Assembly (NCBI GenBank): GCA_021836125.1
Contig: JAKBJF010000005.1
Location: forward strand, 1 to 43,996
Reading direction: 5' to 3'
DNA: 43,996 nucleotides
Source: Nanobdellota archaeon
GTDB taxonomy: Archaea > Nanobdellota > Nanobdellia > Parvarchaeales > Parvarchaeaceae
Part shown: positions 12,076 through 40,960 of the stretch, piece by piece
Layout: each line of letters starts with the position of its first letter
Position numbering within the stretch: position 1 is the first letter of the stretch
The notes under the pieces: generated by a model
Database searches by the model: none
Told to the model about the DNA's origin: nothing
What the model saw: the letters and a program-made list of their open reading frames with translations, nothing else
Position numbers and translations under genes: made by a program

Positions 12076-12096
12076 GGTTAGCTTATACAGAAGCAG

Positions 12097-12107: not shown

Positions 12108-12118
12108 TTGTGTTTTTG

Positions 12119-12748: not shown

Positions 12749-12815
12749 ACTAATGATAGCAGATTAAACAATAAATCTGTGGCTTCTGGTTTTTATTAGG
12801 CTTTTCCTACCTGCT

Positions 12816-13564: not shown

Positions 13565-16500
13565 TTAATCGATTGGGGCGCCATTATTATAACTTGTTGC
13601 GACTCCAAATAGATTATCTGAACAAAATAATCCGAAGCACGTTCCGACCAATAAATTTTTATTTTCAACGATACTGTTTGTAGAAGTGTCTATTATCGAC
13701 AAGTTTTCGATTAGTTTATTTCCAGATACGACTTGGTGGGTTAAGACATAAATGTATTGCCCATTGGGAGATTCGGCTAATCCTTCGGGAGTAGCACCGA
13801 GGGATATATTCGAAATTACGTTAGTCGAAAACGATGATGTAGAGATGACAGAAACAGTCTTGTTAAATGGATTTGAAATATAAAGATTTCCATTCTGTGA
13901 ACCTACAATCGCATAGTAGTCTGGAGAGTTAGGATTAAATGCGGTGCCGACTGCAAAACCAGGGACTACTGTGTTATCTGAAGTGTTTATTACATTTACT
14001 CTGTTATATAAGGCGTTTGTAACATAAAGATAGTCCAATTCTTTAATCCCATTGCCGTAATAACCAAATGCCATCTTAGCTGGTGCTGATCCGACGGATA
14101 TATTTTTTATAATAGTGTTTGTAGCGGTACTAACGACAGAAATCTGGTTCATCCCGTAATCCGAAATATACAGGTAATTCCCGTTCGGACTTAAAGTAAC
14201 GCCATATGCGCCTAATTCGCCAAAAGTCCAACCGACATGTATGTGCGCGACTACTGTGTTTGTTAAAGTGGATATCACTGAAACCTCATTTCCTTCGGTA
14301 GCGACATAAGCATATTGCCCATTTGGTGTTATCGCTATGTCAATTGGATCAACGGCTACATTTATAGTTGAAACAACCGTATTCGTGGCCGTGTCTATTA
14401 CCGATACGGTATTCGAGTTACTATTTGCTACATAAACATAATTTCCGCCTGGAGTCATTGCTAGGCCTTCAGGAGATTTGCCAACGGGTATTGTAGAGAC
14501 TATATTATAAGTTGAATTATCTACAACCAAAACTTTATCTGCTAAACTATCCGTTATGTAAATACATCCTTTCGGAGTAAGGGCAAAATTTATAGGATTC
14601 GTCGAACCCAGCGATTCTGTACCCGAGTAAGGCGACGCTGTATATGGGCAATGCACACCCGTGGATGGACCGCCTATCGAAAACGGATAAGATGATGGTG
14701 TCGTAACAGATGTAATAAATTGTATAATCGATGATGTAGAAGTAACTGTCGAGCCATCATAAGTAACACTCCAAGCTGCCCCCGAAGGAAGACCTGACTC
14801 TGTGAATGCAGTTATACACTTTTGTTGTTCCGTAAAGCTTATTGTTTCTGTAGAACCTGCCTGTACATAGCCATCACTTGGAGTCGGTGCGTATACAGCA
14901 GAACAACCACTCAAGCCTGCGGAGCCTACGGTCGGAACTGTAAACCCGTAATTTTCATTTGCTGTCAAGAAATGTATCGGTCTAGGAGTCAGCGCGCTTT
15001 GGGATACGCCATTGTAGGTCACGGTCCAACTGGTGAAATTCGGAAGCCCGGTCTCTATAAATGCTGTCGAGACATTGAATGAAAGTATAGGGTTGCTTGT
15101 CCAATTTATATCGTTTATCTGTACGGGTATTATGTTGTATGTTTTAGGCGAAACAAGCAGCGTGTAGCTTATGCTCCATACCGTCGGCAGATTGTATGCC
15201 ATATAATACTGGGATAAAGGTGCATAGGTAAGATTCCCTGGTGATTGGAGCATACAGTTAACGATGTATCCATAAAGCACATTGTTAATAGGATTGCATT
15301 CTTCGTCCTGGCTTATATTGAACTCCCATGTCTTTCCGCCTTTGTAGGTCGACGTGAATACTGGTGTCGACCCGCCAGCGCAGGCCCCATTAAGGACGAA
15401 AGCTTTTCCGACGCTGTCGTACACATTGACCTGCGGTGCTGAGGTGGTACCAGTTTCGCTAATGCTGTAAAATTCTAATGAGTGCACTCCCAAATTGAGC
15501 ATGCCTAAAGGAACGTAAGTCCCTGCTGAGTAAAGACTCGGAGGTTGCGTTCCGGAGCAAAGCTGTCCGTTTCCGAAAAGATAGGTCGGATTAATATTTC
15601 CAACACAGTTCCTTGACGTACCGCCAGTGAAGAAACTTAAAGCATAATCGAACATACTGCCGTTAACGAAATTGGACAGTCCACTTATGCCAAAGTAAGG
15701 ATTCTGGAGAGTTATGATGTTCAACATATCAAAGGGATAGATAGACGACTTAAACAGTGCTTCTGATTCTAGGTATGAAGAAAAGAGATCTGTCGGATAA
15801 ATCTGGTTGTACAATGTCTGCGCTTCATATTGAGACACCGTCAATCCGCTCATATAATCATCCTTTATCTGGTTCTGAGCGTTGCTAGGCGCCATGGAAA
15901 CGTTCGTCGGATACGGCCCGACAAGGACGCCTATGCCTATCCCTACAACGCTTGAACCCGTGCCTGTAGACTGTAATACGAACGAATCGTTCTGAGATGA
16001 TTGAGTAATCTGAGCGTACGCAACGCACGAAGGTGGTTGGGGCGTTGTATAACCGGGTAGCGCGCTATTGCACGATTCACAAACTGCGCCGTAAGCCGAA
16101 CCTGGAGGTGTACCTGGCGGAGGTATAATTTTATTTTGTATGAAAGTAAAGTTGTATTTAGTGTATGACGCACTTGGGCAAGTTGAACTATAACTTACGG
16201 ATTCGTTGGAAATTGCCGTATTTGATATACTTGAACCGCTTCCGCTCGCGGCGCTTGAACACGCCTGTATCGTGCCAGAATAACCTGAAGGACAATTATA
16301 TGTCTCCTGCCATCCTCCGCTTACACTGGCATTCGTTATGGTCGGCTGTGTTATGTTGAAAGTCGTCCTGCACGCTTCGCATCCTCCGACAAGAAGTATA
16401 CTATAAGTCGAAGAGCTATACGGGTTTGGTACAGAAGGATTTGTGAACGCAGACCAAGACCAGGAAGGCCCTGTCAGGCCATTGTCAATAGTTGCTGAGA

Positions 16501-19500
16501 TACCCTGGTCAGTCGGCACGGCACTTGATTGATTCTCGCATATGAAAGAGTTTCCTAAGCCCGTTTTTTCGGTCACATTCGTCCATGCATTAAATTTGGC
16601 CAAAGTTATACCTGCGTTGGTCACTATCCAACCGCTGCTTTTATTTATAGCCGTGAATGCGCTGTTCGTCAGGTCTGAAGTCTCGGAACAGTTAGCAGAA
16701 ATGCCGGTGCTGGACGGCGTCACGCTCAAAGTCGGCTTGGAGTTTACCGTTCGGCAGGCGTTTCCAGGCGTCTTATAACAGAGTTGAACGTTTCCTGTGC
16801 AGGATATTGAGCTGTTGTAATTCGGATTGTATACTTGGACTAGGTTAGCAGTATTCATGTTTATGGACTCTGTTATGCTGTATCTGGAAGGGGAAGGTTG
16901 TGTGTAAGAATTTGGATCATATACTGTGAGGTTTCCGCTGGTCGGAGCACACGAGTATGTCTTACCGTTTAGCGAGCCGACAAGGCAACCGCCCCCTACC
17001 GGGAAAACGGACGTATTTATACCTGATGTTTCTGCTGGTTCGCTGTGCGGTGCGCACTCTATAGAATTGTAGCTGCCCTGCTGCGGATACAAAGACTGCT
17101 GAACCTCCGGTGCTGCGCACAGGGTGTACATCGATACGGTCGTATTTACGGGGCACGTAGAGACGCCTATTACTCCACTGTTCCCATGATCCGGCAAGGC
17201 TATGGTTATTGGTGGATAATTGTTACCAGCTGGCAGCCCGCTGTATTCGGTTATATTTGATTCTAGTTGATTGCTTGGTAGATAGTTACTCCAGCTTCCA
17301 CCAACATAGAATTGGGGTTGTTTTACGACTGCGACTCCGGAAGTGGTAACGTTTTTAGAAAACTGACATGCATCGAAAACAGAATAGCTGCCAGATCCCA
17401 GTGTGATATTTAAAATGCCGGGTTCATAAGCCAACCCTATGTTCTGGCCATTATAAACGATCTCGTTACCGGAAGATGCGACAGAAAAATTCGAATCATA
17501 GCTTCCCAAATACAACGGCATGCAGTACAGTTGAGCACCTGTGTTGGATAAAGTGTTCGCGCTTACCGGTGTGCCCTCTGGCAGGCTAAATGTTCCTGCA
17601 CTAACAGAAGAACTCTGCGAAACGTCTACACATGAATTCTGGAGATATGTCCCGGCATTAACGGTTACGGGGTTGTCTTGTATGCTATTCGATAGGTATG
17701 AAGAATAGCTAGAACAGCCTGTATATTCCGGACCCAATACCGAAAACGCATCGTTGTTATTACTCAAGGCTGCGTTAAAACTTGATGCGAGTGAGTTAGA
17801 TACATTGAAGCTTATGGGCGAGCCTGCCCCGGATAAAGTGTCTGTAACGACCGGCGCGCCATTGTAGAAGCAATAAGTGCTAGTTATCGTCTGAGACGGG
17901 TTAGTCACTTGATAAAGCTTGTTCGAATAGCTTATGCCGCCGACAGATTCTGGCCAGACTACTTGCTGCGAAGCCGTGTAAGACACTCCGAAACAATCCA
18001 CTACTGGTCCCTCAGCAAGAATAGACAGTGAATTTGATGTGGCGGATACGTTGTTGAACAAAAGATCACCCAAAGACGGGTTTGAAGGCATTGAAAAGTT
18101 GCTGACGCATGGACCGTATGCTGGCTTGCAATATGCAAGAATATCGGCAGAATAATTGTTGGTTTTGAGCGATGCTGAATACGCGGTTTGAGATACGTTC
18201 ATCCAGTTGTTAACGTACACTGGCTGCTGGGTTATCCCGTACAGTATTTGATACTGGTGCGTTCCTGTGGAGAGGGGCGTGGCTACGAAAATATATGAAC
18301 ATGATCCTCCTGTTATTGAAGGTATCATTTGTGAAGGCACCTCAGCATAAGGATATGGCGAATCTTGAGTGATCTTTATGTTGCTACAAGAAGTACTTGA
18401 CTGCGGCATGGAAAAAATTACTGGAACGGGAACGGTATTGTCCAAATTAAGCGATAGGTTATATATTGCTGAAGCACTGTCTCCATAAACTTCTGGACTA
18501 AATCCGTCTATCTTTCCCTCTGAAGTCCCGGTTCCAAGAGTAAGATTCTGAATTATTATAGATTTGTTAACCTTCACATTGCCGATGTTGTCTGTAAATA
18601 CCAACGTATAATTACCTTTCGAACTTAACTGGCAATTTGCCGGCGATGATGGCAAAGTAACGTTCCCGTCTTGGGCATTTAATGTGCCACATATACTAAT
18701 ATTCATAGCCGGTAGCGAACCTGAACTCGTAACCGAAACACTATATATCGTAACATTCTGAGATGTCACTGGCAAACCGTCGTAAGTCAAATAAAGCGAG
18801 CCTAACCTGTTTGATGAGGAAAAGTAACCTTGTACTGCCGGGCCGGTCCCAATGTCTGCACTACCAATGTATTGATTATTGGACGCATTGATTGCGACTA
18901 CACGTAGTTCTGGGATCGCAGAATCCAAATAACACGTGACGCTGCCGGCGCTGGAAACGTATTCTCCCGCATGTATCTGAGTAATAGAGCTATTGACACA
19001 AGAAAAGGGAGTATCGTTAAGATAATACATATAGAAGTTCACGCTGTTCCCTTTTGGTACATAAGTAGCAGATGCATATGTGAAAACAAACGATGCCTGC
19101 GTTATCGTCGGGTAAGTAGTCCTATTGATGAGTAACTGTGCTACATATCTGCCGTTTACCGGGTTAACCAAGGAAAAGTTAGCTGACACGGGTATTACTT
19201 TTCCAGGATAAGAAGTGTTTGAAACGTTGAGGTTGGAAGTGTTGTACATTATGACATTGAACGGCCCTATTGCAGATGAGACGTTTATTACGAAGTTGCC
19301 GCCGTTCGGGAAACATGATCCAAACGAAGTACTGTTCAGCGAAGTAACGCCGCTGCCCAATCCCGTAGATACTGTTATATTGGATTTTGGACAGTTGCCA
19401 TTTGGAAGTGAGAATTGGATCTTTTGCCCCGAAAAGTTAGAGTAATTATAAGCCTGTTTTATCATCTGGATTCTTAGAAGATTTGGACTTGCTTCGGTAT

Positions 19501-22500
19501 AAGGTACGCCCCCTACATTGTACTGATATGTACCATTATAAGGCAAAGCAGAAGCTGCTATCGTGAACCCTGCCACAGCGGAAGGGAAGGAGGTTATATT
19601 CCCAATACTAAGATAGCTGTTAGTGTCGTTCAAAAACGAGTATACCTGATTTAAGCTGTTAATAAGTGAAGACTGGCTGCCCGAACCAAAGAAGGCTACT
19701 GCTTCGCTCGAAAGAGACGAAACCTGAGGATTAAGCTGTGGTTTCTCGATTGTCATCGACACGCTTGATCTATACAGCAGAGGCATGTTATTGTAATTCA
19801 ATGCAACCACATCAGAATAAGGCATAAATAGCAGACCTCTCCAGCGGTTTATTACAGTTACCTGAGACGGACTTGGCGGTTCAAAGAAAGCCTGTGTAGC
19901 ATAGTTTATGCTGCTGGGACTGACCGGTTGTATGGACCAGAAAACGCTGAAGTCCCTTATATTGTCAGGAGAAGCGAAGCATGATATCGTCGTACCTACC
20001 GGTGCAGGCGGTGCAGTCGCCGGCGGCTTGTTTCCAGTAGACACACATCCAAGAAGCGCACCTAACAAAGACAATTGGCCGCACTTCGCCATCTGATAAT
20101 TTCCGGTTAGATTGTATATTCCAGTCCCATTCTGTAATATCATATCCGTTTGCGCGCTTACGTTCAATTCTGTTTGAGTGTTATTTGTTGCTGAAACACT
20201 GAAATTAAAGTTATCAGTATACACTGATGTGCTTGCGAATGGTGACTTCGGAAAGGAGAATTTGACGCCAGGTACTACGTCCCATATGCCAGTGGGAATT
20301 GAAAATTCATATGATGCCATGTATTGAGACAGCGGTGACTGGGGCAGTGAGGACTGTGATGCGGATGAAGTTATATATTCATTGTTATAATCTGTAAAGC
20401 TGTTGTTTATACCTGCCTGCACAAGTGAGTCTACGCTGTAGCCGTGTAACATACTGAACGAGGGGCTCAATGAACCTGGGCTGCTCGTATACCATGAGAC
20501 ATTGAACATGTTACCAAAGTAAACACTTAACTGGAATTCTCCGGCAAGAAGTTTTTTGAATAGAGGCATCGGTATCTCAACGGTAAACGTTGCATTTTGG
20601 CCCGGGCCTATCATAGGATCTTGCTGTGATGTTACCGGTTGCTGCACGTTTAAATCGGAACTATTGACACTCTGGAGAAAAGTGTTAGCTGTCCTTATTA
20701 CCATGCTATTTGACGTGCCGCCGCTTGTTGCAGTGACTGTACCTGTGTTAGCGTACATCCACATGCCGAGCAGAGAATCGTTAAATGGCCCATTAGAATA
20801 TAGAGTGCTTTGAGAGAACAGCTGCTGTATTGGTACCGGATTAAACGGGTGGCCGGGCATAGTGACGAACATGTCTGTGAAACTTCCTGAGAACGAATTG
20901 TTGTATCTAACTTGTATAACTCCAGTAGTAGGAGCCATAGCCTGAAGGAAAGTGTTATAAAGCGCGTATTTATTGCCCGCATTATCAGGATTCGGTGCTG
21001 CAACAGAAAACATTTGACTTATGTTATTGTCATTGAATAGCGCGACAAAGTACGGATTTGTTATGTTTGAAGTACCCACGTTTCTTACTGTCACTACGAG
21101 AGGTACTACTGCCGTATTGTTTGCGTTAAAGGATGGACAATCGGCAACAGCCGAGGCGAATATCGTATTTGATGCCTGTGGGTTGGCTGGATTCTTCATC
21201 CCGTTAAACTCGCCGCAGTACTGTCCTGCATTGTTGGCTATGTAGACGGACGTTATCCATGCATCATATATTTTACCTACATTTATACCGTTTGGCGTAC
21301 ATGCAATATTTGTTGCATAAATCCCTTGGTTAAAATTCATATAATTATTGCTGAAGCTCGAATTGAAGCAGTCTGAACTTGGGAAGAACGAGTTGCACTG
21401 TCCTATAGCTACAGAATAATTCTCTAAATAATCAGGTGCAAGGACATCTGTGAAATTCGGAGGCGTATAGAATCCTGACGCCGTATTGAAGTTTTCACCG
21501 TAGAAACAGAAACTACTGAGCGCTTTCTGGGTAAAATTGTTTAATGAAAAAGCAAGATCATTGCCTGGGTTCTGTGGGCCTATGTCTTCCATATTGAAAA
21601 AAGTTTGCGGCCAGATCGTCTCAAGTGAACTTGGAAAAGGACTAAACAAAGGATTACCCAATACATACTGTCCTACCGGCCATTTACTTGACACGTCATA
21701 ACTCCCCGGAATTACTTGATCCCAAAAAAGAGTCGGTGATATCGTATTTACGCTGGAACTTTGTTCAAACGTGCAATTCCCTTTTCCAGGGGAATAAAGA
21801 CCGGGTATCTGGCTGCAAATCGGGTATACGCCGTCAAATGCAAAGGAATCGTACGCATAAGGGTACAGTCCGGAAAAATGGTGCGTTATCCCGAGCATAG
21901 CCAATTGGTACGGTGCAGTTATTATATCTATCGCAGTAGCAAAGTTTGTATTCCCTATGCCTGGATAATATTCCATCTGCAGGTTCGGTATCTTATATAT
22001 CGATGAATATGTCCCGTCTAAAATACTTTGTAAGTCTAATGGGGGGAGGGCTGCTGAAAGCTGATTTTCATAATAAGCGATCACAAACGCAGGATTGTTA
22101 GACTGTGAAAATACTGAAGTCATTGACGGCGGAGCCCCGTCCACGAAGATCCTAACGAATCCAGACCCGACATCGCCCGGTGCGGATCCTGTGAAGTAGG
22201 TATCGTTTATTTCGGTGGCAAAAGTCTGCGGAACGTCCAAGTATCTTTTCATCGTCTGAGCTGCTTTTGACCCCTTAAAGTCCGCGTAGTTTATGTGCGG
22301 GTCTGAAAAATTCACATCGGATGGAATAGTATCGAGTAGTCCCTGAAATTGCCATGGAGAAGTCGAACCGTCCTCAAGATACATTGTAGACAAAGATTGA
22401 TCAAGACCTATACTATTCGCAAGCCCGACGGACGGCGTAAAGCCGGTAAGATCATATATCGGGTAAAAGGATCTACCTAACACGTCAAAATAAGTATGGC

Positions 22501-23473
22501 TGTCTATGAAAGTTGAACCACAGGATATGGAAGGTATTATAAGTTCCGCATTATTAGGTATTCCGTTATCATTTGGCAGCGAGAATTGTTGGGTGTTGCT
22601 GTCGAAGACGGCATAGTAATAGCTTGCCTGGGAATTTGTTGGATCCGTACCTGTGTATTTCTGTATGACTCCTAAGCCTAGACTAGATTTATTATATCCT
22701 GTCACGACTGGACCAGGGGGGTTATCCTGCTGTATAGAACCTAGATAGTTCTGCGGCTGTACCTGTCCAGACCCATCTCCTATACAATATCCCATATCAA
22801 ATGGATCAAAAGGATAATCTGGAAAGGCAGAGAATAGTTGCGGTGCCTGGCTTACCTGGCAGGCTGGATATGGCGAACCGCCTCCTTCTGCAGCTTGAGT
22901 CGTTGAGGGGAACCCGAAGAACCCTGTGAACTGTTCCCATTTTCCAGCATTAGAATCTGACACGCTACCTACGTAATTGGCAGTCGCCCAAGTAATAGAA
23001 CTAGTAAGGCTAGGAAACCACCCATTCCATGTTACTGAAAAATGTGAAGGAGTTATTGTGCCAGTTTCGTTACAGTAAAATTGGCCGTTGCTAAAACTAA
23101 AAACTCGCCCTGGAATAAATTTCTCGTTATAGTTCGAATCGCTCTGTGCCGAGCCAACACCCTGGAAATTTGAATACCAATTCCAATAATTTGATGAGTT
23201 GGCGCTTATCTCCGAATTTATCACTGCTGGATTTATATTATTGGAAGATGACAACGTGGATTGAGGGGGCAGACCTCCTCCGATGTTATTATCTGTACTT
23301 GTATTTGTGGACGTGCTAAATATAGAAGCATCCTGCTGCTGCGTTGTAGTGGTGAAATTACCGTAAACCCTGGCGGAAAACGCGAAAATAAGCGCAAAGA
23401 GCACCACTACGAGCATATAATATCTTCCGCGCGAATACGCTGGTTTTATTTTAAATTTGCTATGTTGTTTCAT
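13565..23473 (-). CDS. Giant 3302-residue surface protein with C-terminal beta-propeller
   Basis: The last gene of a five-gene block. The N-terminus is basic, then hydrophobic at about 20-37 (MLVVVLFALIFAFSARVYGN): a signal peptide or N-terminal anchor. About 2760 residues of Ser/Asn/Tyr-rich, beta-type, sequon-dense sequence follow, with many Cys, some in clusters (CPVNTTVSMYTLC, ECAPHS, CESCNS). Two GLP modules occupy about 2800-2969 (FIETGLPNFTSWTV, FTESGLPSGAAWSV). Residues 2970-3302 form a beta-propeller of YVTN type, which I read as seven blades with units such as VYVANSNSNTVSVIDTATN and SPNGNYLYISD. The protein ends freely after the propeller with no C-terminal anchor. It starts 9 bp after the preceding gene. 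Role unknown; a long outward-reaching adhesin or stalk is the likeliest reading. Confidence 0.88.
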   Translation of the reverse strand: MKQHSKFKIKPAYSRGRYYMLVVVLFALIFAFSARVYGNFTTTTQQQDASIFSTSTNTSTDNNIGGGLPPQSTLSSSNNINPAVINSEISANSSNYWNWYSNFQGVGSAQSDSNYNEKFIPGRVFSFSNGQFYCNETGTITPSHFSVTWNGWFPSLTSSITWATANYVGSVSDSNAGKWEQFTGFFGFPSTTQAAEGGGSPYPACQVSQAPQLFSAFPDYPFDPFDMGYCIGDGSGQVQPQNYLGSIQQDNPPGPVVTGYNKSSLGLGVIQKYTGTDPTNSQASYYYAVFDSNTQQFSLPNDNGIPNNAELIIPSISCGSTFIDSHTYFDVLGRSFYPIYDLTGFTPSVGLANSIGLDQSLSTMYLEDGSTSPWQFQGLLDTIPSDVNFSDPHINYADFKGSKAAQTMKRYLDVPQTFATEINDTYFTGSAPGDVGSGFVRIFVDGAPPSMTSVFSQSNNPAFVIAYYENQLSAALPPLDLQSILDGTYSSIYKIPNLQMEYYPGIGNTNFATAIDIITAPYQLAMLGITHHFSGLYPYAYDSFAFDGVYPICSQIPGLYSPGKGNCTFEQSSSVNTISPTLFWDQVIPGSYDVSSKWPVGQYVLGNPLFSPFPSSLETIWPQTFFNMEDIGPQNPGNDLAFSLNNFTQKALSSFCFYGENFNTASGFYTPPNFTDVLAPDYLENYSVAIGQCNSFFPSSDCFNSSFSNNYMNFNQGIYATNIACTPNGINVGKIYDAWITSVYIANNAGQYCGEFNGMKNPANPQASNTIFASAVADCPSFNANNTAVVPLVVTVRNVGTSNITNPYFVALFNDNNISQMFSVAAPNPDNAGNKYALYNTFLQAMAPTTGVIQVRYNNSFSGSFTDMFVTMPGHPFNPVPIQQLFSQSTLYSNGPFNDSLLGMWMYANTGTVTATSGGTSNSMVIRTANTFLQSVNSSDLNVQQPVTSQQDPMIGPGQNATFTVEIPMPLFKKLLAGEFQLSVYFGNMFNVSWYTSSPGSLSPSFSMLHGYSVDSLVQAGINNSFTDYNNEYITSSASQSSLPQSPLSQYMASYEFSIPTGIWDVVPGVKFSFPKSPFASTSVYTDNFNFSVSATNNTQTELNVSAQTDMILQNGTGIYNLTGNYQMAKCGQLSLLGALLGCVSTGNKPPATAPPAPVGTTISCFASPDNIRDFSVFWSIQPVSPSSINYATQAFFEPPSPSQVTVINRWRGLLFMPYSDVVALNYNNMPLLYRSSVSMTIEKPQLNPQVSSLSSEAVAFFGSGSQSSLINSLNQVYSFLNDTNSYLSIGNITSFPSAVAGFTIAASALPYNGTYQYNVGGVPYTEASPNLLRIQMIKQAYNYSNFSGQKIQFSLPNGNCPKSNITVSTGLGSGVTSLNSTSFGSCFPNGGNFVINVSSAIGPFNVIMYNTSNLNVSNTSYPGKVIPVSANFSLVNPVNGRYVAQLLINRTTYPTITQASFVFTYASATYVPKGNSVNFYMYYLNDTPFSCVNSSITQIHAGEYVSSAGSVTCYLDSAIPELRVVAINASNNQYIGSADIGTGPAVQGYFSSSNRLGSLYLTYDGLPVTSQNVTIYSVSVTSSGSLPAMNISICGTLNAQDGNVTLPSSPANCQLSSKGNYTLVFTDNIGNVKVNKSIIIQNLTLGTGTSEGKIDGFSPEVYGDSASAIYNLSLNLDNTVPVPVIFSMPQSSTSCSNIKITQDSPYPYAEVPSQMIPSITGGSCSYIFVATPLSTGTHQYQILYGITQQPVYVNNWMNVSQTAYSASLKTNNYSADILAYCKPAYGPCVSNFSMPSNPSLGDLLFNNVSATSNSLSILAEGPVVDCFGVSYTASQQVVWPESVGGISYSNKLYQVTNPSQTITSTYCFYNGAPVVTDTLSGAGSPISFNVSNSLASSFNAALSNNNDAFSVLGPEYTGCSSYSSYLSNSIQDNPVTVNAGTYLQNSCVDVSQSSSVSAGTFSLPEGTPVSANTLSNTGAQLYCMPLYLGSYDSNFSVASSGNEIVYNGQNIGLAYEPGILNITLGSGSYSVFDACQFSKNVTTSGVAVVKQPQFYVGGSWSNYLPSNQLESNITEYSGLPAGNNYPPITIALPDHGNSGVIGVSTCPVNTTVSMYTLCAAPEVQQSLYPQQGSYNSIECAPHSEPAETSGINTSVFPVGGGCLVGSLNGKTYSCAPTSGNLTVYDPNSYTQPSPSRYSITESINMNTANLVQVYNPNYNSSISCTGNVQLCYKTPGNACRTVNSKPTLSVTPSSTGISANCSETSDLTNSAFTAINKSSGWIVTNAGITLAKFNAWTNVTEKTGLGNSFICENQSSAVPTDQGISATIDNGLTGPSWSWSAFTNPSVPNPYSSSTYSILLVGGCEACRTTFNITQPTITNASVSGGWQETYNCPSGYSGTIQACSSAASGSGSSISNTAISNESVSYSSTCPSASYTKYNFTFIQNKIIPPPGTPPGSAYGAVCESCNSALPGYTTPQPPSCVAYAQITQSSQNDSFVLQSTGTGSSVVGIGIGVLVGPYPTNVSMAPSNAQNQIKDDYMSGLTVSQYEAQTLYNQIYPTDLFSSYLESEALFKSSIYPFDMLNIITLQNPYFGISGLSNFVNGSMFDYALSFFTGGTSRNCVGNINPTYLFGNGQLCSGTQPPSLYSAGTYVPLGMLNLGVHSLEFYSISETGTTSAPQVNVYDSVGKAFVLNGACAGGSTPVFTSTYKGGKTWEFNISQDEECNPINNVLYGYIVNCMLQSPGNLTYAPLSQYYMAYNLPTVWSISYTLLVSPKTYNIIPVQINDINWTSNPILSFNVSTAFIETGLPNFTSWTVTYNGVSQSALTPRPIHFLTANENYGFTVPTVGSAGLSGCSAVYAPTPSDGYVQAGSTETISFTEQQKCITAFTESGLPSGAAWSVTYDGSTVTSTSSIIQFITSVTTPSSYPFSIGGPSTGVHCPYTASPYSGTESLGSTNPINFALTPKGCIYITDSLADKVLVVDNSTYNIVSTIPVGKSPEGLAMTPGGNYVYVANSNSNTVSVIDTATNTVVSTINVAVDPIDIAITPNGQYAYVATEGNEVSVISTLTNTVVAHIHVGWTFGELGAYGVTLSPNGNYLYISDYGMNQISVVSTATNTIIKNISVGSAPAKMAFGYYGNGIKELDYLYVTNALYNRVNVINTSDNTVVPGFAVGTAFNPNSPDYYAIVGSQNGNLYISNPFNKTVSVISTSSFSTNVISNISLGATPEGLAESPNGQYIYVLTHQVVSGNKLIENLSIIDTSTNSIVENKNLLVGTCFGLFCSDNLFGVATSYNNGAPID
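13568..14566 (-). repeat. Seven-blade YVTN beta-propeller coding repeat
   Basis: Residues 2970-3302 consist of about 40-50-residue units with the pattern [VI]-Y-V-x-N-x-x-x-N-x-[VI]-x-V-I-x-T-x-T-N followed by V-x-x-I-x-V-G-x-x-P and x-x-P-N-G-x-Y. I count seven: they begin near YITDSLADK, YVYVANSNS, YAYVATEGN, YLYISDYGM, YLYVTNALY, LYISNPFNK and YIYVLTHQV. Seven is the commonest closed propeller number. Such propellers occur in archaeal surface-layer and adhesion proteins. Confidence 0.85.
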
Positions 23474-23482
23474 AGACCCTTA

Positions 23483-26400
23483 TCAAGTCCAGCCCGTGTA
23501 CTTCTGAAGCGGCCATGTAGCGACAAGATCAGGGTACAAGGGATTATATATCCCATACAAGTTGCCGATATTTATCTGTTGGGAAGGTATAGAATATGTA
23601 GCATTGAACATTATTATTTTTCCCACCTGTGACGGGTTTGTCTGGCTCTTATAAACACACGCAAATTCACTCGAAAACGTAGATTGAGTGGAAGAATAAA
23701 TAAATGGGACAATAGGATATTGAGATGTCAGTTTTAAGGTGCCTGAAGTCGCCGTCGCTGAACCGGAATTATAATTAACGTAATTGAATTTGTCCGAAGC
23801 TGAAGAATTTGAATAAAACATGGGGAAGACGGCGGCCCCGTTATTTTGGTACTTGTCTCTATTTGATGCGCCCAGCCCATAAAGAATATATATTGAGCTC
23901 GGCATGCTGTTTGTTACGTTTACCCAAATCACGCCTCCCGGCTGTATTTGAGTCTGATTCCACCAATAAAGCTCCTTAGTGATGGTGCCTAAAATCTTAC
24001 TGCCGAAAATTCCAACTATCTTAACGGAAGTAACTGGATTTAATCCGTCTGCCGCGAACACTGAGGAGTTAAAGTCAGCACCGAGAATAAGTTCTACTTG
24101 ATAATCCTGCGAAAGAGATACAGATGTGTTCATCACATACTGGTTGAAATATGTGTCATTGTAAGTAGACAAAACACTGCTTATTTTATTATTCAAAAGA
24201 AAAGCTGGTTTCTCTTGTGCTGCAAATCTCACGGCGTTGTATCCATTTATGTAATATCTAGCGAACGCGTAGGACACTGAATCGTTTGATGGATACTGGT
24301 CAGTAGAGAAACCTATAAACTGCGGTGAACTTCCGAAAGTGCTAAGAAAACCGGGTGATGCTGAATACTGCAGGTCTTTCTTGCCGTTTAACGATGATTT
24401 CAAGTAGCATGTTCCGCCAGAGCAATAGTTGTCGATTTCTATATTATCAAGTATGTTTGGAGTCGTTTCTGAAGATGATTGAGACAGCAAATTTCCAGAA
24501 TAGTTATACAACCCATTGTTGTCATTATAACCATTGAATTGTACGTATTCGAATTTTTCGCCTCCCAATATAATGCTATTGGAAGATAATATGACATTCA
24601 TCATAGGAGCAGGACCAGCCAAATATATGCCGGCATCCAAAGCAAAGTCAGAAGGCAAATTTAACTTCCCGCTAAAGGCGCCTATGCTCCAGTTATATGG
24701 ATTATCCGCAGAGACTATCGCACCGCCCCCAATATCAGAAATCATTTGGTAGAAGTTAGGGGAAGACTGTCCGTTGCCAACACTGAATTTGTATCCTCCG
24801 ACTGTTATATTTGAAGGACACGAGTTACTTTGCGTCAACCAGCGCAGGTATTCGGATGGTTGATTGAAAACATTGAAAGAGTATGTGCAATTGTAATATG
24901 TGTTTGAACCGACTGTCTTTGTCGTACACTGTCCGCCGTTTGAAGTTATCGCACTTTCTGCACCAGCATTGTTTGTAAACAGGTCAGCTGTGCATGTTGT
25001 ATTCAATAACGGGCGCGGTATTATCGAATTACAGCAGGCAAATGTGTAGTTTTGTGCAACTAAAACGTTAGAAAACCCGGGGTAACATGTATTATAGATT
25101 GAATTCTGCATACCACAAGTTTCTGTTGGAAGTAAATCCAATGAATTTTGATAACCGAAGTTAAGCGAAACTGGGACTCCCAACGTTTCGGAGCCTCCCT
25201 GCGCTGATTCATTTGGCATGACTACAAGGCTGCCGTAAGGACTTGTACCATACAACTTTACATTGAAAAGCTTTTGATTGTCGTATGTGTCTATCACCGT
25301 TACGTTTTTGTTAACTAATGCTATATACAAAAGGCTTCCATCGGGAGATACTCCCATATTGTTAGAACCGCCTGGAAAACCTGGAGGGTATAAGTGGGTA
25401 AACGTGTTACGCAGATATGACGTGTTCGGAGGGAGATAAATAGAATCGAAATTCGTGAAATTGTACAGACTTATTATAGATATAAAACTTGACAGGTTCG
25501 TTTTAAGGTTGGGATTTCCTTGTACATAATATAAAGGCATGGCGGAATAAACGTACAAACGATTAAGCTGTACATTTAGTGTCATGCTCATTGCTGTTGG
25601 TGCGGTCGGCACTACGCCTGAAGGCACCGCACTTATATTAGCTATGACCAAACCGGAAGACATGTTTAATACAAAAACGTCGTTATTCCAATCACAGATA
25701 TCTCCAAGGAGGTAAAGGAATTTTCCATCTGATGAAATTAACACTTGATTTATATACGCGTATGGCTGATTACATGTAAGCCCGTTTACGCTAAGTCCTG
25801 CAACGTTTATCTTAGAGATAATCGAGTTTGAATATGTGCTTATAACGTCTATCCCGTTCTGTGTACTATTAATCACATAGACTTTTGTGCCATTTGAATT
25901 TACGACCGCACCATCGGGTGTGAAAGCACCGTATATCGTAGTAATGTAAGCGCCACCCGTGGCATTAAAGACCTGTATTCCGGTTCCGTTTACAACGTAT
26001 ATGTACTTGTAAGGATTCCCCAATACACTTTGTGATACATAATAAGCGCTATCCGAATAACTTGTGCTTAAGCTATAAACCTGCGAGTTTATAGTACCGT
26101 CTATTATAGACAGATTAGAATTATAATTTGGATTGTGCGTTGCATACACATAATCTATGTTCGATGCGCCTGCTAGCGAATATGAATTGTTTATACTCGT
26201 GATATTCTTTGCGAATTCCCCATTTGCGGATAAAAGCATCGCACCGTGGCTTCCTTCACTCACGTAAACTTCGTAGTGCGATTGTTGAGCAGGAGTGTAT
26301 GCGTAATAAGAGTCTATGCTGTAATTCTGTGCGGATATTGGTGAACCGGTGTTATTGGAGTAATAAGCCGGACAAGAGGTGTCTTCACGCGCATTTATAG

Positions 26401-28195
26401 ATAGATTTAATACGTTGACATCGAAAGGCGTAGCTGCCAGGAAACTGACTTCTGTCGGGATCTGGTAATTGAAGAGATTCTGTATATTTGACTGTAACGC
26501 GTTAGTCAATACGCTTCTGCAAGTATTAAGGCATGATGGAGTCTTACCGCAGTTATAAATCGTAGTTCCAAAATAAGGTGTCGCTGCGCAACTTATCTGA
26601 TTTATTAAGGATGCTGTGCCTTGCGTGATTGAACCGAATGCAAGTATCATAGCGGAGTACCAGTCATACTTTGGCTTTCCTGCTACAGATACAGTCTTGA
26701 GATTTACCGCATGTGATGTGTACATTATGTAATTGTATATCGCGTACTGCGGGAAGCCCTGTATTTTTTGGGAACTTATAGGGAAACTCTGATTTACAAA
26801 AGCTATCGCCAACTGGAGAAGATTACTCAGATAATCCTGTGCGCCTATACTTGTAGTGAGACTCAAACAATTTTGTACAGTAAATTGTATTTCGTTCTCA
26901 GAAACACACACTTGCGGATAGTAGAGGGGGAACAATGCTAATGATACGTGGAGTATATTCCCATTAGGGAAAAGCAGGTTCTGCGGTCCACTGAGATCAA
27001 AGCGGTTTATTATATATTTATAATAAACGAACTGGGGCTGTATGCCTATAATCACAGAGCCGACTGGCACAAGAGTGGCTATTGGATTAGAAGTACCAAA
27101 AAAAGTGGAATTGAATTGCATGCCATCAAAGGAGAATACTGTATTGTTTTGGAGGGGAATTATCTGACCGGCTTGTGAACAAGAATACCCTACTCCGGTT
27201 GCTCCACTGACCGGTGTGCATGTGTCCCCATTTATTTGTGTCACACTAAAAAATGATGTGCCTCCGGAAGCTCCATATATATTGTCTGCGGAAGGATTAA
27301 CTATTGGAATCAGATAAAAGTCCTTTGAACTCGGTAGAGGATTATATAATATTATCGCATCCTGGCCGCTTGGCATAGTCACTACCGAATATTGTGCACT
27401 GCCAGATAGCGCAAGCCCAAAGGAGGAAAAAGTACTAAAAAAGCTTGTGTCCGCAAATTGGTTCAATACGCTATCTACAACGTTTTGTTCTGCACCAAAA
27501 CTAAAACTATAGCCTTCTAATGAGAATTGTTGTCCCAAGGTGCCGTTTAAAATAGAACCGCCTGGTGTCACTGTAAGACTGCCGTTGATATTATAAATCG
27601 TAATTATATTGTCAGAAGAATTGAATTGGAATTTGTACCAATCCTTAAGATATGGTGCACTAAAGTTTGCGAAATAAAGCTGTTTGCATGAACCTGTACA
27701 TGTAGAAGGCTGTGTGAAGTTAAAGTCTAAAATAGAAGTTATACCTGAAGAATTTTGCAGAGTTGAATACTGCGGCTGATCCAACAAGTTTAATAACCCT
27801 GCTTCAAGCTCTTGATTGTTGGGAAGGCACGTATCTCCGGCGAGGTTTCTCCAGTAATAAATATGTGGCACTGGGAAAAACGAAAGAGTATTGCTTGTGT
27901 TTATATAGCCACAATTCAAAGTCGGAACGAACTGCCCAGATGGAGTTATGCCTCCACTGGGTCGCAAAAGAAAACCGTCCATTAGTTGGGCTTTATCAAA
28001 GTCATATGCCAATTGCTGCGTGGCATAGTCTTTAGCTGCAAGAGTCTGATATATGCTGTTCTCCGCGGTTACATATATCTTTGAGCTTAGTCCAACGCTG
28101 TTTATGTAGGCGAACGCGTTCATTATCGCAAGTATCGTGGCTACTATCATGCCTATTGCTGCAATTATGTTCGCCTGTCCTCTACTCGATATCAT
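23483..28195 (-). CDS. 1570-residue surface protein with class III signal, propeller and DUF2341-like domain
   Basis: The N-terminus MISSRGQANIIAAIGMIVAT has a basic R-G-Q followed by a long hydrophobic helix, the form of an archaeal prepilin (class III) signal with cleavage between G and Q. The following stretch (SSKIYVTAENSIYQTLAAKD) is helical, as in pilins. Residues about 640-1000 contain propeller-type repeats (YIYVVNGTGIQVFNATGG, KVYVINSTQNGIDVISTYSN, SLLYIALVNKNVTVIDTYDN). Near 1360-1460 the sequence GGVIWVNVTNSMPSSIYILY and GLGASNRDKYQNNGAAVF resembles the DUF2341 domain common in archaeal surface proteins. Cys and N-x-S/T sequons are frequent. It begins 1 bp after the 191-residue gene ends and is followed after 9 bp by the giant gene. 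I infer an N-terminally anchored component of the same surface assembly. Confidence 0.86.
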   Translation of the reverse strand: MISSRGQANIIAAIGMIVATILAIMNAFAYINSVGLSSKIYVTAENSIYQTLAAKDYATQQLAYDFDKAQLMDGFLLRPSGGITPSGQFVPTLNCGYINTSNTLSFFPVPHIYYWRNLAGDTCLPNNQELEAGLLNLLDQPQYSTLQNSSGITSILDFNFTQPSTCTGSCKQLYFANFSAPYLKDWYKFQFNSSDNIITIYNINGSLTVTPGGSILNGTLGQQFSLEGYSFSFGAEQNVVDSVLNQFADTSFFSTFSSFGLALSGSAQYSVVTMPSGQDAIILYNPLPSSKDFYLIPIVNPSADNIYGASGGTSFFSVTQINGDTCTPVSGATGVGYSCSQAGQIIPLQNNTVFSFDGMQFNSTFFGTSNPIATLVPVGSVIIGIQPQFVYYKYIINRFDLSGPQNLLFPNGNILHVSLALFPLYYPQVCVSENEIQFTVQNCLSLTTSIGAQDYLSNLLQLAIAFVNQSFPISSQKIQGFPQYAIYNYIMYTSHAVNLKTVSVAGKPKYDWYSAMILAFGSITQGTASLINQISCAATPYFGTTIYNCGKTPSCLNTCRSVLTNALQSNIQNLFNYQIPTEVSFLAATPFDVNVLNLSINAREDTSCPAYYSNNTGSPISAQNYSIDSYYAYTPAQQSHYEVYVSEGSHGAMLLSANGEFAKNITSINNSYSLAGASNIDYVYATHNPNYNSNLSIIDGTINSQVYSLSTSYSDSAYYVSQSVLGNPYKYIYVVNGTGIQVFNATGGAYITTIYGAFTPDGAVVNSNGTKVYVINSTQNGIDVISTYSNSIISKINVAGLSVNGLTCNQPYAYINQVLISSDGKFLYLLGDICDWNNDVFVLNMSSGLVIANISAVPSGVVPTAPTAMSMTLNVQLNRLYVYSAMPLYYVQGNPNLKTNLSSFISIISLYNFTNFDSIYLPPNTSYLRNTFTHLYPPGFPGGSNNMGVSPDGSLLYIALVNKNVTVIDTYDNQKLFNVKLYGTSPYGSLVVMPNESAQGGSETLGVPVSLNFGYQNSLDLLPTETCGMQNSIYNTCYPGFSNVLVAQNYTFACCNSIIPRPLLNTTCTADLFTNNAGAESAITSNGGQCTTKTVGSNTYYNCTYSFNVFNQPSEYLRWLTQSNSCPSNITVGGYKFSVGNGQSSPNFYQMISDIGGGAIVSADNPYNWSIGAFSGKLNLPSDFALDAGIYLAGPAPMMNVILSSNSIILGGEKFEYVQFNGYNDNNGLYNYSGNLLSQSSSETTPNILDNIEIDNYCSGGTCYLKSSLNGKKDLQYSASPGFLSTFGSSPQFIGFSTDQYPSNDSVSYAFARYYINGYNAVRFAAQEKPAFLLNNKISSVLSTYNDTYFNQYVMNTSVSLSQDYQVELILGADFNSSVFAADGLNPVTSVKIVGIFGSKILGTITKELYWWNQTQIQPGGVIWVNVTNSMPSSIYILYGLGASNRDKYQNNGAAVFPMFYSNSSASDKFNYVNYNSGSATATSGTLKLTSQYPIVPFIYSSTQSTFSSEFACVYKSQTNPSQVGKIIMFNATYSIPSQQINIGNLYGIYNPLYPDLVATWPLQKYTGWT

Positions 28196-28196
28196 A

Positions 28197-28772
28197 TCAA
28201 CTCACGGTACCGTAAACTGTATACGGCTCCGAAGGATTTTGTGGATTGTACACCGGCAGACTACACACAGTTGTAGCCGGGAATCCTGAGGGTATCTGGT
28301 TCATGTAAACAGACATTCCTAGAGTAGATAGTTCCAATCTGTCATCTGCTGTTGTAAGATTGAACACGCTGAGAGAGAACGAGGCGAAGTAATTTATGAA
28401 GTTTACATAGATAGAACCTGAGCTAGTAAGAGAAGTCGGTATTGTCGTAAAGCCAATCTGACAGCTGCTACCACAGTTAGCTACTTGCTCCTGAAACGCT
28501 TCAGCTGTCGCAGCGGAGTATTGATTAGGATGAAATTCCTGCAGATATTTCAGCGTGGCCTGAGTGTGCACATAGTATTGACTGAATATATTGTCAATAG
28601 CAAGGTTGCATGATTCTGAGAGAGGCTCCAATGCGACCATATTGGTTATATTTGCAGTCGTGTTTGTGATAAAGAAAGCCGAGACTACAGACAGTACTAT
28701 CGCAAGCACAGGTATCAAAATTATATCAAGTATAGTTACTTGTCCTCTTCTTCTGGGAGTAAGTTTAAACAT
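28197..28772 (-). CDS. Small pilin-like membrane protein (191 residues)
   Basis: Begins MFKLTPRRRGQVTILDIILI: three Arg and G-Q, then a 22-residue hydrophobic helix (VLAIVLSVVSAFFI). This is a good class III, prepilin-like signal. The remaining 150 residues are outside-facing, with four Cys, two of them close together in NCGSSCQIG, and a third helical stretch SQYYVHTQATLKYLQEFH. No enzymatic motif is seen. The start overlaps the preceding gene by 8 bp, and its stop is 1 bp from the next start, so all five genes of the block must be translated from one transcript. It could be a minor pilin or pseudopilin subunit; I do not recognise a named family. Confidence 0.82.
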   Translation of the reverse strand: MFKLTPRRRGQVTILDIILIPVLAIVLSVVSAFFITNTTANITNMVALEPLSESCNLAIDNIFSQYYVHTQATLKYLQEFHPNQYSAATAEAFQEQVANCGSSCQIGFTTIPTSLTSSGSIYVNFINYFASFSLSVFNLTTADDRLELSTLGMSVYMNQIPSGFPATTVCSLPVYNPQNPSEPYTVYGTVS

Positions 28773-29574
28773 ATGTACCTTGTGGCGCTACTAAGTAATG
28801 TATTGTCACATACATAACGCCGCTGTCTTGATACAACGGATTGTGGTTCGCATCTGTGAACTGCAATATTACCGGAAACGACTCTGTATATGTATCTTCG
28901 GAATAAAATATAGACGATGAAGCATATTGCGGGTTTATGCTATTATAGTTGTTCGAGCCGACTGCAAATATCAGACTACCGCTGAATATACCGGGCGGTA
29001 TCGCCTGAACTCCTATACTTAAGGGTATGCTTATAAGAAACGCTGCATACTCTGCTATTTGAGCGTCCTGCGCTATTACCTGCTCCGTACCTGTAAAGGC
29101 ACTGCCATAATTGAGCTGGTTGAAGTTTGATACTGAAACTGCGCCGCCGGGAGATAAATCCATGGGATTCTGAGTATCGACTATCGTTGCTGACACACCG
29201 GCAAATGCAGGTACTAAATCCTGAGAAAAGGGGACCTGTGAAGCGCCTGGCGAGTAATCATACTGCACGCATGATAAAAATGACGATTCGGCCATCTTTG
29301 AAACGTCTATAACGCCAGGTTCGGTGTTGCTCTCTGTCATTATCGTCTGTTTCCCTGCAATGTTTGTCATATAATTGTCTGTCTGCTGATAAGCAAAACA
29401 ATTTGGAGAGGTTATAAGACGACTACCGATAGCGGAAGCGACTGCCTGAGCATTTGCGAATACGCTTACGCTGTTTACGTTGGATATGCTAAATGACAAC
29501 ACTATTAATAACAAAGCGAACGACAGTATCAAGACTGCCGAGTTCGTGAATGACATCAGTTCCGCTAATGGCAT
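28765..29574 (-). CDS. Pilin-like membrane protein (269 residues)
   Basis: One N-terminal hydrophobic helix at about 11-32 (SAVLILSFALLLIVLSFSIS) is followed by a helical continuation (NSVSVFANAQAVASAIGSRL), the layout of a type IV pilin-like subunit, although no basic residues or RGQ precede the helix. The outside domain has Cys in SPNCFAYQQ and LSCVQYD, and an aliphatic stretch (AEYAAFLISIPLSIGVQAIP, about 178-197) that may be a second, weaker hydrophobic segment. It ends in beta strands (VMYVTIHYLVAPQG). Function unknown. It starts 1 bp after the end of the 850-residue gene and overlaps the next by 8 bp. Confidence 0.8.
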   Translation of the reverse strand: MPLAELMSFTNSAVLILSFALLLIVLSFSISNVNSVSVFANAQAVASAIGSRLITSPNCFAYQQTDNYMTNIAGKQTIMTESNTEPGVIDVSKMAESSFLSCVQYDYSPGASQVPFSQDLVPAFAGVSATIVDTQNPMDLSPGGAVSVSNFNQLNYGSAFTGTEQVIAQDAQIAEYAAFLISIPLSIGVQAIPPGIFSGSLIFAVGSNNYNSINPQYASSSIFYSEDTYTESFPVILQFTDANHNPLYQDSGVMYVTIHYLVAPQGTYV

Positions 29575-29575
29575 A

Positions 29576-32128
29576 TTATCTCACCGTTGGTGTGTACACG
29601 CCTCCTGCTTGCGTCTGCACCAGGCTTAATCCTCCGTCTAATGCTAGTGTATTATAATTATAGCCTAATAAAGTAGTGGAGGGCGTGTTCGGATCCACGC
29701 CGAAGACGTTGTTGTTCGATAAAAATGTCAGCGTAAAATCACTGCCAGAGCTAGTAACCTGAAAAGTAATGTTTGAATATTCTGTCGGATAGAATGACTC
29801 GCTTGGACCTGACGGGAATGCAAACCCATTATATAGAGATGTAAAGGCATTTGTCTGTATATGGCTGTTTATAAAATTGGTTACTGTGTTGGCACCAGGT
29901 ATATTGCTTAAACCTGGAAGCACCTCCACGCCTACTATTGACCTTTGTATATCTGGCGGACCTGGTATATAATTAGAGTCCGATGAAAGCGGAGATGAGA
30001 AGTCTAGGATAGAATTATTATTTATATAATATTGCGGATAGGCTGTTGTTGCCGAGCTATAATATGGATTGATAAGTTTTATACTGTTTTTGCCTCCAGT
30101 CATGTTTGTCAGGTTAATACATGATATGGCTGTGCCGAACTCTGTTATATTATTCTGCGTGACGGCGTTGACAAAGGCGCCGCTCACTTGTGAGGAGGTA
30201 GTGTATATCGGTGCGCCGTTATCGTCTGTTATAAGGTTATAAATACAAAGTGCAGAATAACTGCCACCTGGAGGGGAATAAATTCCTAGACCTAAATAAG
30301 AGGGAAGAAGTATACTTACATTTTTAGAAGAACTTGTGCTTAGGATCTCATTCACAAAATAAGCAAGTGTATGAGGGAACAGTAAGTTATTCTCTGGACA
30401 CTCCGTATTGAAAAGTCCTTGAGATATTGCAAAAGACAGTGAACCATTGCCTTCGGGTAAAAGTAAGGATTTGAGCGTGTTTCCTGGAGGGGGGGTGGTT
30501 TCAGCTTGAGTACATATATCCGCCAGATCGGTTATTACCGGCGTCGAAGCCACAGTGGCTCTTCCATTTGCTTGTCCTTCTAGATAAACTTCTCCGCCAT
30601 ATCCGATAAAATACGAGCCGAGAGGCTGAACTGCGTTCTGCTTAAAGTATACATCAAATAATGTAGTAAGCGCTCCATATTCTGAAAGTGCGCCCATTGC
30701 AAGATTACTGCCAGAAGAAGTGAGCGAAGACGCCGTCGGAAGATCTCCTAAACATGTAGCTGTACGTGCTGCGACCATAAGGCCTGTGCGTCCCACAAGC
30801 GCAACTGTAGAAAGAAGCGGGTCTCCTATCCCGTTGACGGGGATATTGTTTATGAAAGCGCTGTTTGACGACAAAGTATTGGATTTTACAGAAACGCCGC
30901 TTTGAGGCGTGGAATAAGGATTGTAGGAGGTGCTGCTATTCGAAAACTCTCCGAGAAGATCCTGGCTAAGCTGTGCACTTTGCACGGCCGTATTTATCTG
31001 GTCCTGTGCGTAGTATGACTGTCCAAGGTTGCTGTACTGGCCAGACAGGTTTGCCTGCTGAACGTAATGATCGAGCTCTAAATCGAAGGCGGTTAATTGC
31101 GGTGGAAGAGGTTGCTGATTCTGGTATGAAGAAACTACCTCCAAGCCGTTCGAAAGGGAATTCCCAGACAGCGGCGTTACGTATTGGTCGAAATGAAAAC
31201 CGTTTGTCAAAGAATTGACGACTGTCGCCGCTGATAAAAACGCCACCGAAAATGTTATGCCTTTCAATCCGAAACGGATAGCGGATTTCACTATAGATTG
31301 CTTAAAATTGTTCTTGACGTTATTGGCGACATACTTTATATACGCAAGAACCCCGTTTCCTCTCGCTCTTGCCATCTGGAGAAGGCTGTTTGGCACATCT
31401 ACCGTTATTGTTTCTGCGTTCTTCAGTCTGTTTTCCACTTCGGTGGAAGAAAGTATTTTACCTGTAGTCGCATCGCGCCATACTCCTTTTTTCACTGCAG
31501 GAGACAATGCACCTATGAACTGATCGTTCGATTCCACGTAGTCTGCACTAGTAAACCTTGTCGAAGCGATTTCATTCTTGCCAAGCTTGCCGGCTTTCAT
31601 AGCATATGCCCCATCTTGGGTTATAAAACTGTCGCTCTGCTCCACTGCGCTTCCTTTAAGATTTTCGACTTCGGGTAGAGTATCAGCAAGGACTTTATCG
31701 CTCGCTGATAAGGTCATTCTCTCCGCGTCTGTACCGACGCTTATGGGCCCAGGTTTTGACTTGGGACCTACACTAAGCATGAAACATATCGCAAAACTGT
31801 ATTCTGCCGTGCCAACATCCAGCGTTGGACCGCTTGCATAAGATATATTCCTTATGTCAGAACCGCCTGCACAATTGTATTTATCCGTCGCTGCAGACCA
31901 CTGACAGAGGGAATTATTGCCGCTAAGTGTTATTCTCATCGATGATGGTGCAGAATATAGGGCATTCTGTATAGCGCCTAGATTAGCGCCGAAAATTGAA
32001 ATTGAATCTGCTCCGTTCTGCAGGAAAACGCCCTGCAACTGGGCAAAATAGATTCCTACAAGGAGAAAAGCGGCTGCAAGTATGATTACCGCGATACCTA
32101 TGACTACCTGAGCATTTCTACTCAACAT
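29576..32128 (-). CDS. 850-residue anchored protein, first gene of the surface block
   Basis: First gene of the five-gene block. The N-terminus MLSRNAQVVIGIAVIILAAA continues to about residue 30 as one hydrophobic helix; the R-N-A-Q before it is a weaker variant of the class III signal. Residues about 130-285 are unusually charged and Lys-rich (for example GKLGKNEIASTRFTSADYVE, RLKNAETITVDVPNSLLQMA, YIKYVANNVKNNFKQSIVK), unlike the neutral Ser/Asn-rich rest. A second hydrophobic segment lies at about 287-309 (FGLKGITFSVAFLSAATVV), so the charged part might face the cytosol if both segments span the membrane. The C-terminal 500 residues look extracellular, with several Cys. No known domain is recognised. 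A TATA-like element 33 bp before the ATG starts the whole operon. Confidence 0.82.
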   Translation of the reverse strand: MLSRNAQVVIGIAVIILAAAFLLVGIYFAQLQGVFLQNGADSISIFGANLGAIQNALYSAPSSMRITLSGNNSLCQWSAATDKYNCAGGSDIRNISYASGPTLDVGTAEYSFAICFMLSVGPKSKPGPISVGTDAERMTLSASDKVLADTLPEVENLKGSAVEQSDSFITQDGAYAMKAGKLGKNEIASTRFTSADYVESNDQFIGALSPAVKKGVWRDATTGKILSSTEVENRLKNAETITVDVPNSLLQMARARGNGVLAYIKYVANNVKNNFKQSIVKSAIRFGLKGITFSVAFLSAATVVNSLTNGFHFDQYVTPLSGNSLSNGLEVVSSYQNQQPLPPQLTAFDLELDHYVQQANLSGQYSNLGQSYYAQDQINTAVQSAQLSQDLLGEFSNSSTSYNPYSTPQSGVSVKSNTLSSNSAFINNIPVNGIGDPLLSTVALVGRTGLMVAARTATCLGDLPTASSLTSSGSNLAMGALSEYGALTTLFDVYFKQNAVQPLGSYFIGYGGEVYLEGQANGRATVASTPVITDLADICTQAETTPPPGNTLKSLLLPEGNGSLSFAISQGLFNTECPENNLLFPHTLAYFVNEILSTSSSKNVSILLPSYLGLGIYSPPGGSYSALCIYNLITDDNGAPIYTTSSQVSGAFVNAVTQNNITEFGTAISCINLTNMTGGKNSIKLINPYYSSATTAYPQYYINNNSILDFSSPLSSDSNYIPGPPDIQRSIVGVEVLPGLSNIPGANTVTNFINSHIQTNAFTSLYNGFAFPSGPSESFYPTEYSNITFQVTSSGSDFTLTFLSNNNVFGVDPNTPSTTLLGYNYNTLALDGGLSLVQTQAGGVYTPTVR

Positions 32129-32153
32129 AACTCACTAGATTTATTAAATCCGG

Positions 32154-32168
32154 GATATTAATAATTTA
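32154..32168 (-). promoter_or_regulatory. Promoter of the five-gene surface operon
   Basis: TAAATTATTAATATC on the minus strand, centred about 33 bp before the ATG at 32128, followed by a second A/T-rich TTTAATAAATC (32139-32149). It is the only spacer in the block long enough for a promoter; the four internal junctions are overlaps or gaps of 1-9 bp. Confidence 0.5.
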
Positions 32169-32196
32169 GTCGCATTCTGTTAACTAATCAATAAAT

Positions 32197-32208
32197 TTTT
32201 ATTTAAAC
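32197..32208 (+). promoter_or_regulatory. TATA-like box of the aminopeptidase gene
   Basis: TTTTATTTAAAC, centred about 23 bp before the ATG at 32225, so the mRNA is probably leaderless. It sits back to back with the promoter of the surface operon. Confidence 0.55.
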
Positions 32209-32224
32209 CCTGATAACCAAAGGA

Positions 32225-40957: not shown

Positions 40958-40960
40958 TTT

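Follow-up and report, generated by a model that had tools for sequence, protein, structure and literature searches.

A conserved five-gene operon of a Parvarchaeales-type archaeon encodes prepilin-like and giant surface proteins and is probably part of an archaeal type IV filament system

A five-gene operon of 18.5 kb, located at 13565-32128 on the - strand of the window (the whole 43,996-nucleotide stretch of DNA analysed here), probably codes for that half of an archaeal type IV filament system which consists of pilin-like and giant proteins. The system would be of a kind typical of Nanoarchaeota, and in its own family the operon has most likely become detached from the motor. The source genome (G000; 0.8 Mb, 66% complete) belongs to a Parvarchaeales-type DPANN archaeon, which is tiny and probably host-dependent. 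We confirmed five same-strand ORFs of 850, 269, 191, 1570 and 3302 aa, named A, B, C, D and E in the order of transcription, with junctions of +1, -8, +1 and +9 bp. Gene order, lengths, strand and spacing are exactly as claimed in a preliminary description of this DNA.

Gene A (29576..32128) encodes a protein with an N-terminal helix and a weak class III start (SRNA^Q), in which the first ~130 residues are conserved, the middle is variable and the ectodomain is large. The product of gene B (28765..29574) also has an N-terminal helix, carries the motif SPNCFAY...PGVID..K....C and has no basic class III start in its own genus. Gene C (28197..28772) encodes a small, prepilin-like protein with an RRG^QVTILD start and four conserved Cys residues, and gene D (23483..28195) encodes a giant that is also prepilin-like (SRG^QANII start), with a conserved core (residues 1-~630 and 1002-1570) and a propeller-like stretch at ~634-1002 that is an insertion missing from relatives. 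Gene E (13565..23473) encodes a giant surface protein whose N-terminus is of the Sec or anchor type; the protein has 84 N-glycosylation sequons, a pair of ESGLP-type repeats near residues 2800-2970 and a C-terminal YVTN/YncE-like propeller at ~2955-3302. A divergent intergenic region of 96 bp (32129..32224) separates gene A from an M1 aminopeptidase gene and, going by its position, is the probable operon promoter.

All five products begin with a hydrophobic helix (Kyte-Doolittle peaks of 2.2-3.2), which bears out the earlier claim, and the two RGQ starts and one weaker start that had been described are likewise found, in the 191-aa C and 1570-aa D and, as SRNAQ, in the 850-aa A, respectively. 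We scored as a class III start the pattern basic-x-[GATS]-Q with a hydrophobic helix behind it; by this measure, such starts occur among relatives in 18/20 A proteins, 17/17 C proteins and 17/17 D proteins, and are rare in B (2/19) and E (2/13). The picture of a surface operon with prepilin-like starts and small subunits encoded ahead of the giants is supported; the class III starts belong to A, C and D, and B and E as a rule have none in this genus. E looks like a Sec-exported or anchored protein, not a prepilin. Some small B relatives in other families start with KKAQ or KKGQ, and because a polar stretch precedes the helix in these proteins, the processing of B is uncertain. The encoded proteins are very large, low in charge (8-11%) and rich in Asn, Ser and Thr, and N-glycosylation sequons are numerous in D and E.

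The operon is conserved within the genus. A is present in 20 of the 22 same-genus genomes, and the A-B-C-D-E order is kept wherever contigs are long enough, with genes that overlap or nearly touch. The arrangement is not due to chance: about 20 relatives share the order, with protein identities of 33-52%. The most conserved member is B (46-52% identity in the genus), followed by C, D and A; E homologues occupy the same place beside D, with lengths of 2552-4016 aa and 33-37% identity (one homologue cut by a contig end was left out). Conservation of the five-gene order had been named beforehand as a point on which the proposal would stand or fall; the proposal passes, with the order kept in the genus and, in smaller versions of the proteins, in further families of the class. 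Two same-genus genomes, G015 and G016 (the latter listed as 100% complete), keep the motor and are without B and D matches, from which it follows that the motor must have other clients. An adenosine-specific kinase gene lies near the E end of the operon, and in G229, from another genus of the same family, adenosine-specific kinase, endonuclease, LonB-like and PRC genes likewise follow E. We found only a fragment of the kinase gene in G015 and none in G016. The pattern in these two genomes suggests loss of the whole segment.

To follow the module through the phylum, we relied on B, for which a profile was extended step by step; B was found in 70 of 237 phylum genomes, with a core motif of S-x-x-C-F-A-Y, then P-G-V-I-D, K-F and C. 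Homology of B through its hydrophobic N-terminus only was rejected, because B is still found, in 13 regions outside the family, after deletion of the first 45 residues; A, C and D pass the same N-terminal masking only for the one or two nearest families. The module is recognisable in other families (G034, G033, G027, G025, G171 and G030) and in G229 of the same family, and is rearranged in G023, with the order C-D-E-E'-A-B. Outside the family, profiles for A, C and D built from genus sequences only placed A before B in G034, G027 and, weakly, G171. C matches follow B in G034, G249 and, weakly, G033, and D matches lie downstream of C in G034, G249 and, weakly, G171 and G027. Several lineages carry miniature sets, in which an A-position protein of 114-136 aa and a B of 154-167 aa are followed by two small membrane-anchored proteins, with A, C and D in these sets assigned by position only. 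Between families, E proteins were assigned by their position and not by sequence, and those at the E position in other families are unrelated, Cys-rich and variable in size. One lineage has enlarged a set of a few small proteins into an 18.5-kb operon with giants.

B relatives were also seen within clusters of 6-10 small N-terminal-helix proteins in families f23 and f45 (L086:10105-20000 and L085:7329-13208). These clusters contain many KK(A/G)-type starts and a recurring short protein with an SLNVIV-like helix, and they look like unannotated Nanoarchaeota pilin gene clusters.

An assembly ATPase, a platform protein and a prepilin peptidase are absent from the window, and the preliminary description had held that they would have to be borrowed. 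These parts are indeed present elsewhere in G000 (C7, C22 and C24) and, in other families, just upstream at the same locus. C7 encodes a T2SSE ATPase (8466-10706, 746 aa) and a platform (10685-12775, 696 aa), which is itself without a Pfam match and was assigned by similarity to B-linked platforms. C22 encodes a TadA/B/C set, that is, a Tad-type ATPase and two platform genes (TadB and TadC, by PF00482), with no adjoining pilin genes, and a prepilin peptidase of the Peptidase_A24 family (PF01478) is found at G000:C24:50996-51331 (E 2.6e-14).

An ATPase of ~760 aa, represented in G000 by the C7 ATPase, has its best relatives in a plasmid collection among haloarchaea; it is present in 228 of the 237 phylum genomes, and B is repeatedly linked to it. 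Among 34 genomes listed with both B and this ATPase, 13 have both on one contig, and in 11 of these 13 B lies 6-27 kb downstream of the ATPase on the same strand; in the remaining two B and the ATPase are far apart, and many of the other assemblies are fragmented. The 11 genomes (G033, G027, G030, G031, G249, G023, G199, G167, G122, G189 and G202) represent nine other families, and the linkage has a binomial p of ~2e-12 under a rough 1.5% chance model that treats genomes as independent. In all 11, B sits towards the 3' end of a long locus whose genes are mostly on one strand. Small membrane proteins, two or three in number, open the locus; a coiled-coil-type gene on the opposite strand, the ~760-aa T2SSE ATPase and a ~700-aa platform come next. 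Proteins that are secreted or have class III starts follow, then small pilin-like genes of class III, the A-B-C-D block and, frequently, a large secreted protein. An ATPase that is almost universal in Nanoarchaeota is thereby tied to a defined prepilin-like set, with B (motif SPxCFAY...PGVID..KF....C) as its recognisable anchor. In the window's own family the operon is not adjacent to the motor.

Most of the loci that we read, for example G034:C1:59671-62292 (L165), have two or three small multi-helix membrane proteins with the ATPase, and in most a coiled-coil-type protein and a second small protein accompany it on the opposite strand. All of these accompanying proteins appear to be unnamed parts of the machine.

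Searches of Pfam, NCBIfam and PDB sequences gave no credible match for A, B or C, and none of A to D has an above-threshold relation to a named family. The closest approach is a sub-threshold DUF2341 match at residues 1410-1464 of D (17.2 bits versus a cut-off of 23.4); such sub-threshold matches occur in 7 of 15 D proteins, with a best E of 0.0039. We used AlphaFold to model a minimal B homologue of 155 aa from 48 diverse sequences, and obtained a pLDDT of 93 and a pTM of 0.73; the window B, modelled with genus-level relatives only, had a pLDDT of 35. The minimal model has helices at residues 3-41 (39 residues), 46-59 and, in a short stretch, 86-92, and strands at 65-67, 74-80, 101-107, 126-136 and 139-151, a predicted layout that suits a pilin-like subunit. 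A Foldseek search of this model against the PDB and BFVD, run without a pilin positive control, gave no significant match (best E 0.36).

The propellers that had been put forward for both giants are present in our sequences, as strong repeats in E (~2955-3302; TIGR02276, 3e-34, YncE-like) and as a weak match in D (~634-1002; TIGR03866, 1.7e-4). Both stretches are missing from relatives, and we rejected the propellers as the defining feature of the system. In D homologues, the alignment to the window D covers residues 1-~630 and 1002-1570 and leaves out the propeller-like stretch that separates them; neither the three E homologues searched nor the D homologues matched a propeller family, and counting a simple motif gave the same picture. 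The propellers of D and E are insertions added in their own species and not part of the core.

The motor, platform, peptidase and class III features described above make it likely that the operon belongs among archaeal type IV filament systems, with A-E as the minor, tip and exposed surface parts. In the proposed mechanism, Sec would insert A, C and D into the membrane and the C24 prepilin peptidase would cut them at G/A^Q, and their N-terminal helices would then be the means of filament assembly. The C7 T2SSE ATPase and T2SSF-like platform may pull A, B, C and D into a short filament or pseudopilus; a less likely puller is the C22 TadA/B/C set. D and A would carry large ectodomains outward, with D probably at the tip, and E, as a Sec-exported giant, may bind or cap the complex. 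The propellers added to D and E in their own species probably changed what is bound. Such a structure would be likely to serve for adhesion to another archaeal cell or for contact with it.

Three other readings have to be weighed against this one, and the first of these changes only the motor. In this variant, the module is served by the Tad-type machine of C22, and not by the 746-aa ATPase and 696-aa platform of C7. In G151, a B relative belongs to a cluster of pilin genes that lies no more than about 8 kb from TadA-TadB-TadC, and the C22 set of G000 has no pilin genes of its own beside it; however, B is linked to the other ATPase in 11 genomes from nine families, and we consider service by the Tad machine rather unlikely. 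A greater departure is a membrane-anchored surface or S-layer-like complex, in which the pilin-like helices are only anchors and the proteins form a static coat or adhesin patch with no filament. The size, low charge and Asn/Ser/Thr-rich composition of the proteins and the many sequons in D and E are in keeping with such a coat, as are the separation of operon and motor in the genus and the two relatives that keep the motor without the operon. Mia14, a further archaeon of the ARMAN type, has large PKD and YVTN-propeller surface proteins, some of them linked to T4P loci (PMC5498576). Against a coat of anchored proteins stand the class III starts that are conserved in A, C and D and the finding that, across nine other families, the module is repeatedly linked to an ATPase, a platform and genes for small pilin-like proteins, and we regard it as unlikely.

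The third reading, a pseudopilus secretion device in which A-D form a short piston and E is an exported substrate or retained exoprotein, takes its appeal from the arrangement of several prepilin-like genes with one large Sec-signal gene last, and from the E-position proteins of other families, which differ from one another as cargo might. Nevertheless, E keeps its place beside D across the genus as a long and conserved protein, and such archaeal cells are not known to possess an outer membrane across which a device of this sort would pump. Secretion of this sort therefore seems decidedly improbable, and an archaeal type IV filament system, with the C7 motor, is the reading that we prefer.

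Among described systems, the clade 1 archaeal T4P of Methanococci, Methanobacteria and Thermococci combine an ATPase, a TadC-like platform and many class III minor pilins (PMC4858521), and have two large DUF2341 proteins that were proposed as PilY-like tip adhesins (Makarova, Koonin and Albers 2016, PMC4858521). The module resembles them in its large locus and in the sub-threshold DUF2341 traces of D, but the B-linked platform is one ~700-aa protein versus two TadC genes. The same 2016 census described a clade 4F nanoarchaeal ATPase without identifiable cognate pilins; clade 4F ATPases often have an extra N-terminal domain, and their loci can hold a coiled-coil protein (PMC4858521). The ~760-aa ATPase, a possible member of that clade, is similar in being long, in having a coiled-coil-type gene beside it in other families and in its haloarchaeal relatives, whereas clade 4F pilins are of the PilA family and A-D are not recognised as PilA. 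A-D are candidates for the cognate pilins of the nanoarchaeal secretion ATPase class of that census. Subunit families that are not recognised, proteins that reach giant sizes in its own genus and the split from the motor set the operon apart from known systems, and none of the papers that we found describes the A-E module.

In the bacterial minor pilin/PilY1 tip complex, small pilin-like genes accompany a giant with a C-terminal propeller that is proposed to sit at the tip. The likeness to the operon is one of architecture only, in that small pilin-like genes are followed by a giant with a C-terminal propeller; the propeller is absent in the relatives examined and there is no sequence relation. 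We rejected PilY1-type membership, since no conserved C-terminal beta-propeller was found in the giant-protein homologues examined.

If the cell surface displays A-E, these proteins are concrete candidates for DPANN host recognition that can be tested in existing co-cultures, and the operon is a testable candidate for how host-dependent archaea build host-touching structures. In Saccharibacteria, which are ultrasmall and host-dependent, T4P drive episymbiosis (PMC12206443); this is a functional parallel from a bacterial system. Nanobdellota have an attachment organelle that has been imaged by cryo-tomography, and according to two papers its proteins are unknown or have yet to be determined (PMC11104419, PMC11420986). 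The organelle belongs to the same phylum-level group and has the same presumed task. The single-contig genomes G028 and G152 carry the ATPase, platform and coiled coil, and no A-E module was found beside the motor within the ~40 kb read. That A-E and the ~760-aa ATPase motor form the core of a Nanoarchaeota host-contact filament or attachment organelle is a speculative link, to which we would give very little credence.

Several other genes of G000 and of the window are of note. G000:C7:3318-12775 (L089) contains, just upstream of the motor, the third propeller protein in G000, which is 874 aa long and combines YVTN-type propeller repeats with a textbook pilin start of the archaeal type (SQSALEYMMTYGWAIL). 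Next to it, and directly upstream of the ATPase (746 aa) and platform (696 aa), comes a secreted protein of 808 aa that gave a weak subtilase-type match and that holds the same position by the motor in relatives. Within the window, a 1095-aa surface-type protein (6871-10158, - strand) has about six ESGLP-type repeats, and beside it lies the gene of a small HTH protein of the ArsR type whose C-terminal helices are hydrophobic (10234-10749, - strand); the same repeat is found near the E C-terminus, with 0-5 copies among E homologues. Finally, four adjoining genes at 38382-43821 (- strand) resemble genes of amino-acid catabolism, with translations judged by eye to be saccharopine-dehydrogenase-like, class III aminotransferase-like and, in two cases, aldehyde-dehydrogenase-like, a set that is unusual for so reduced a genome.
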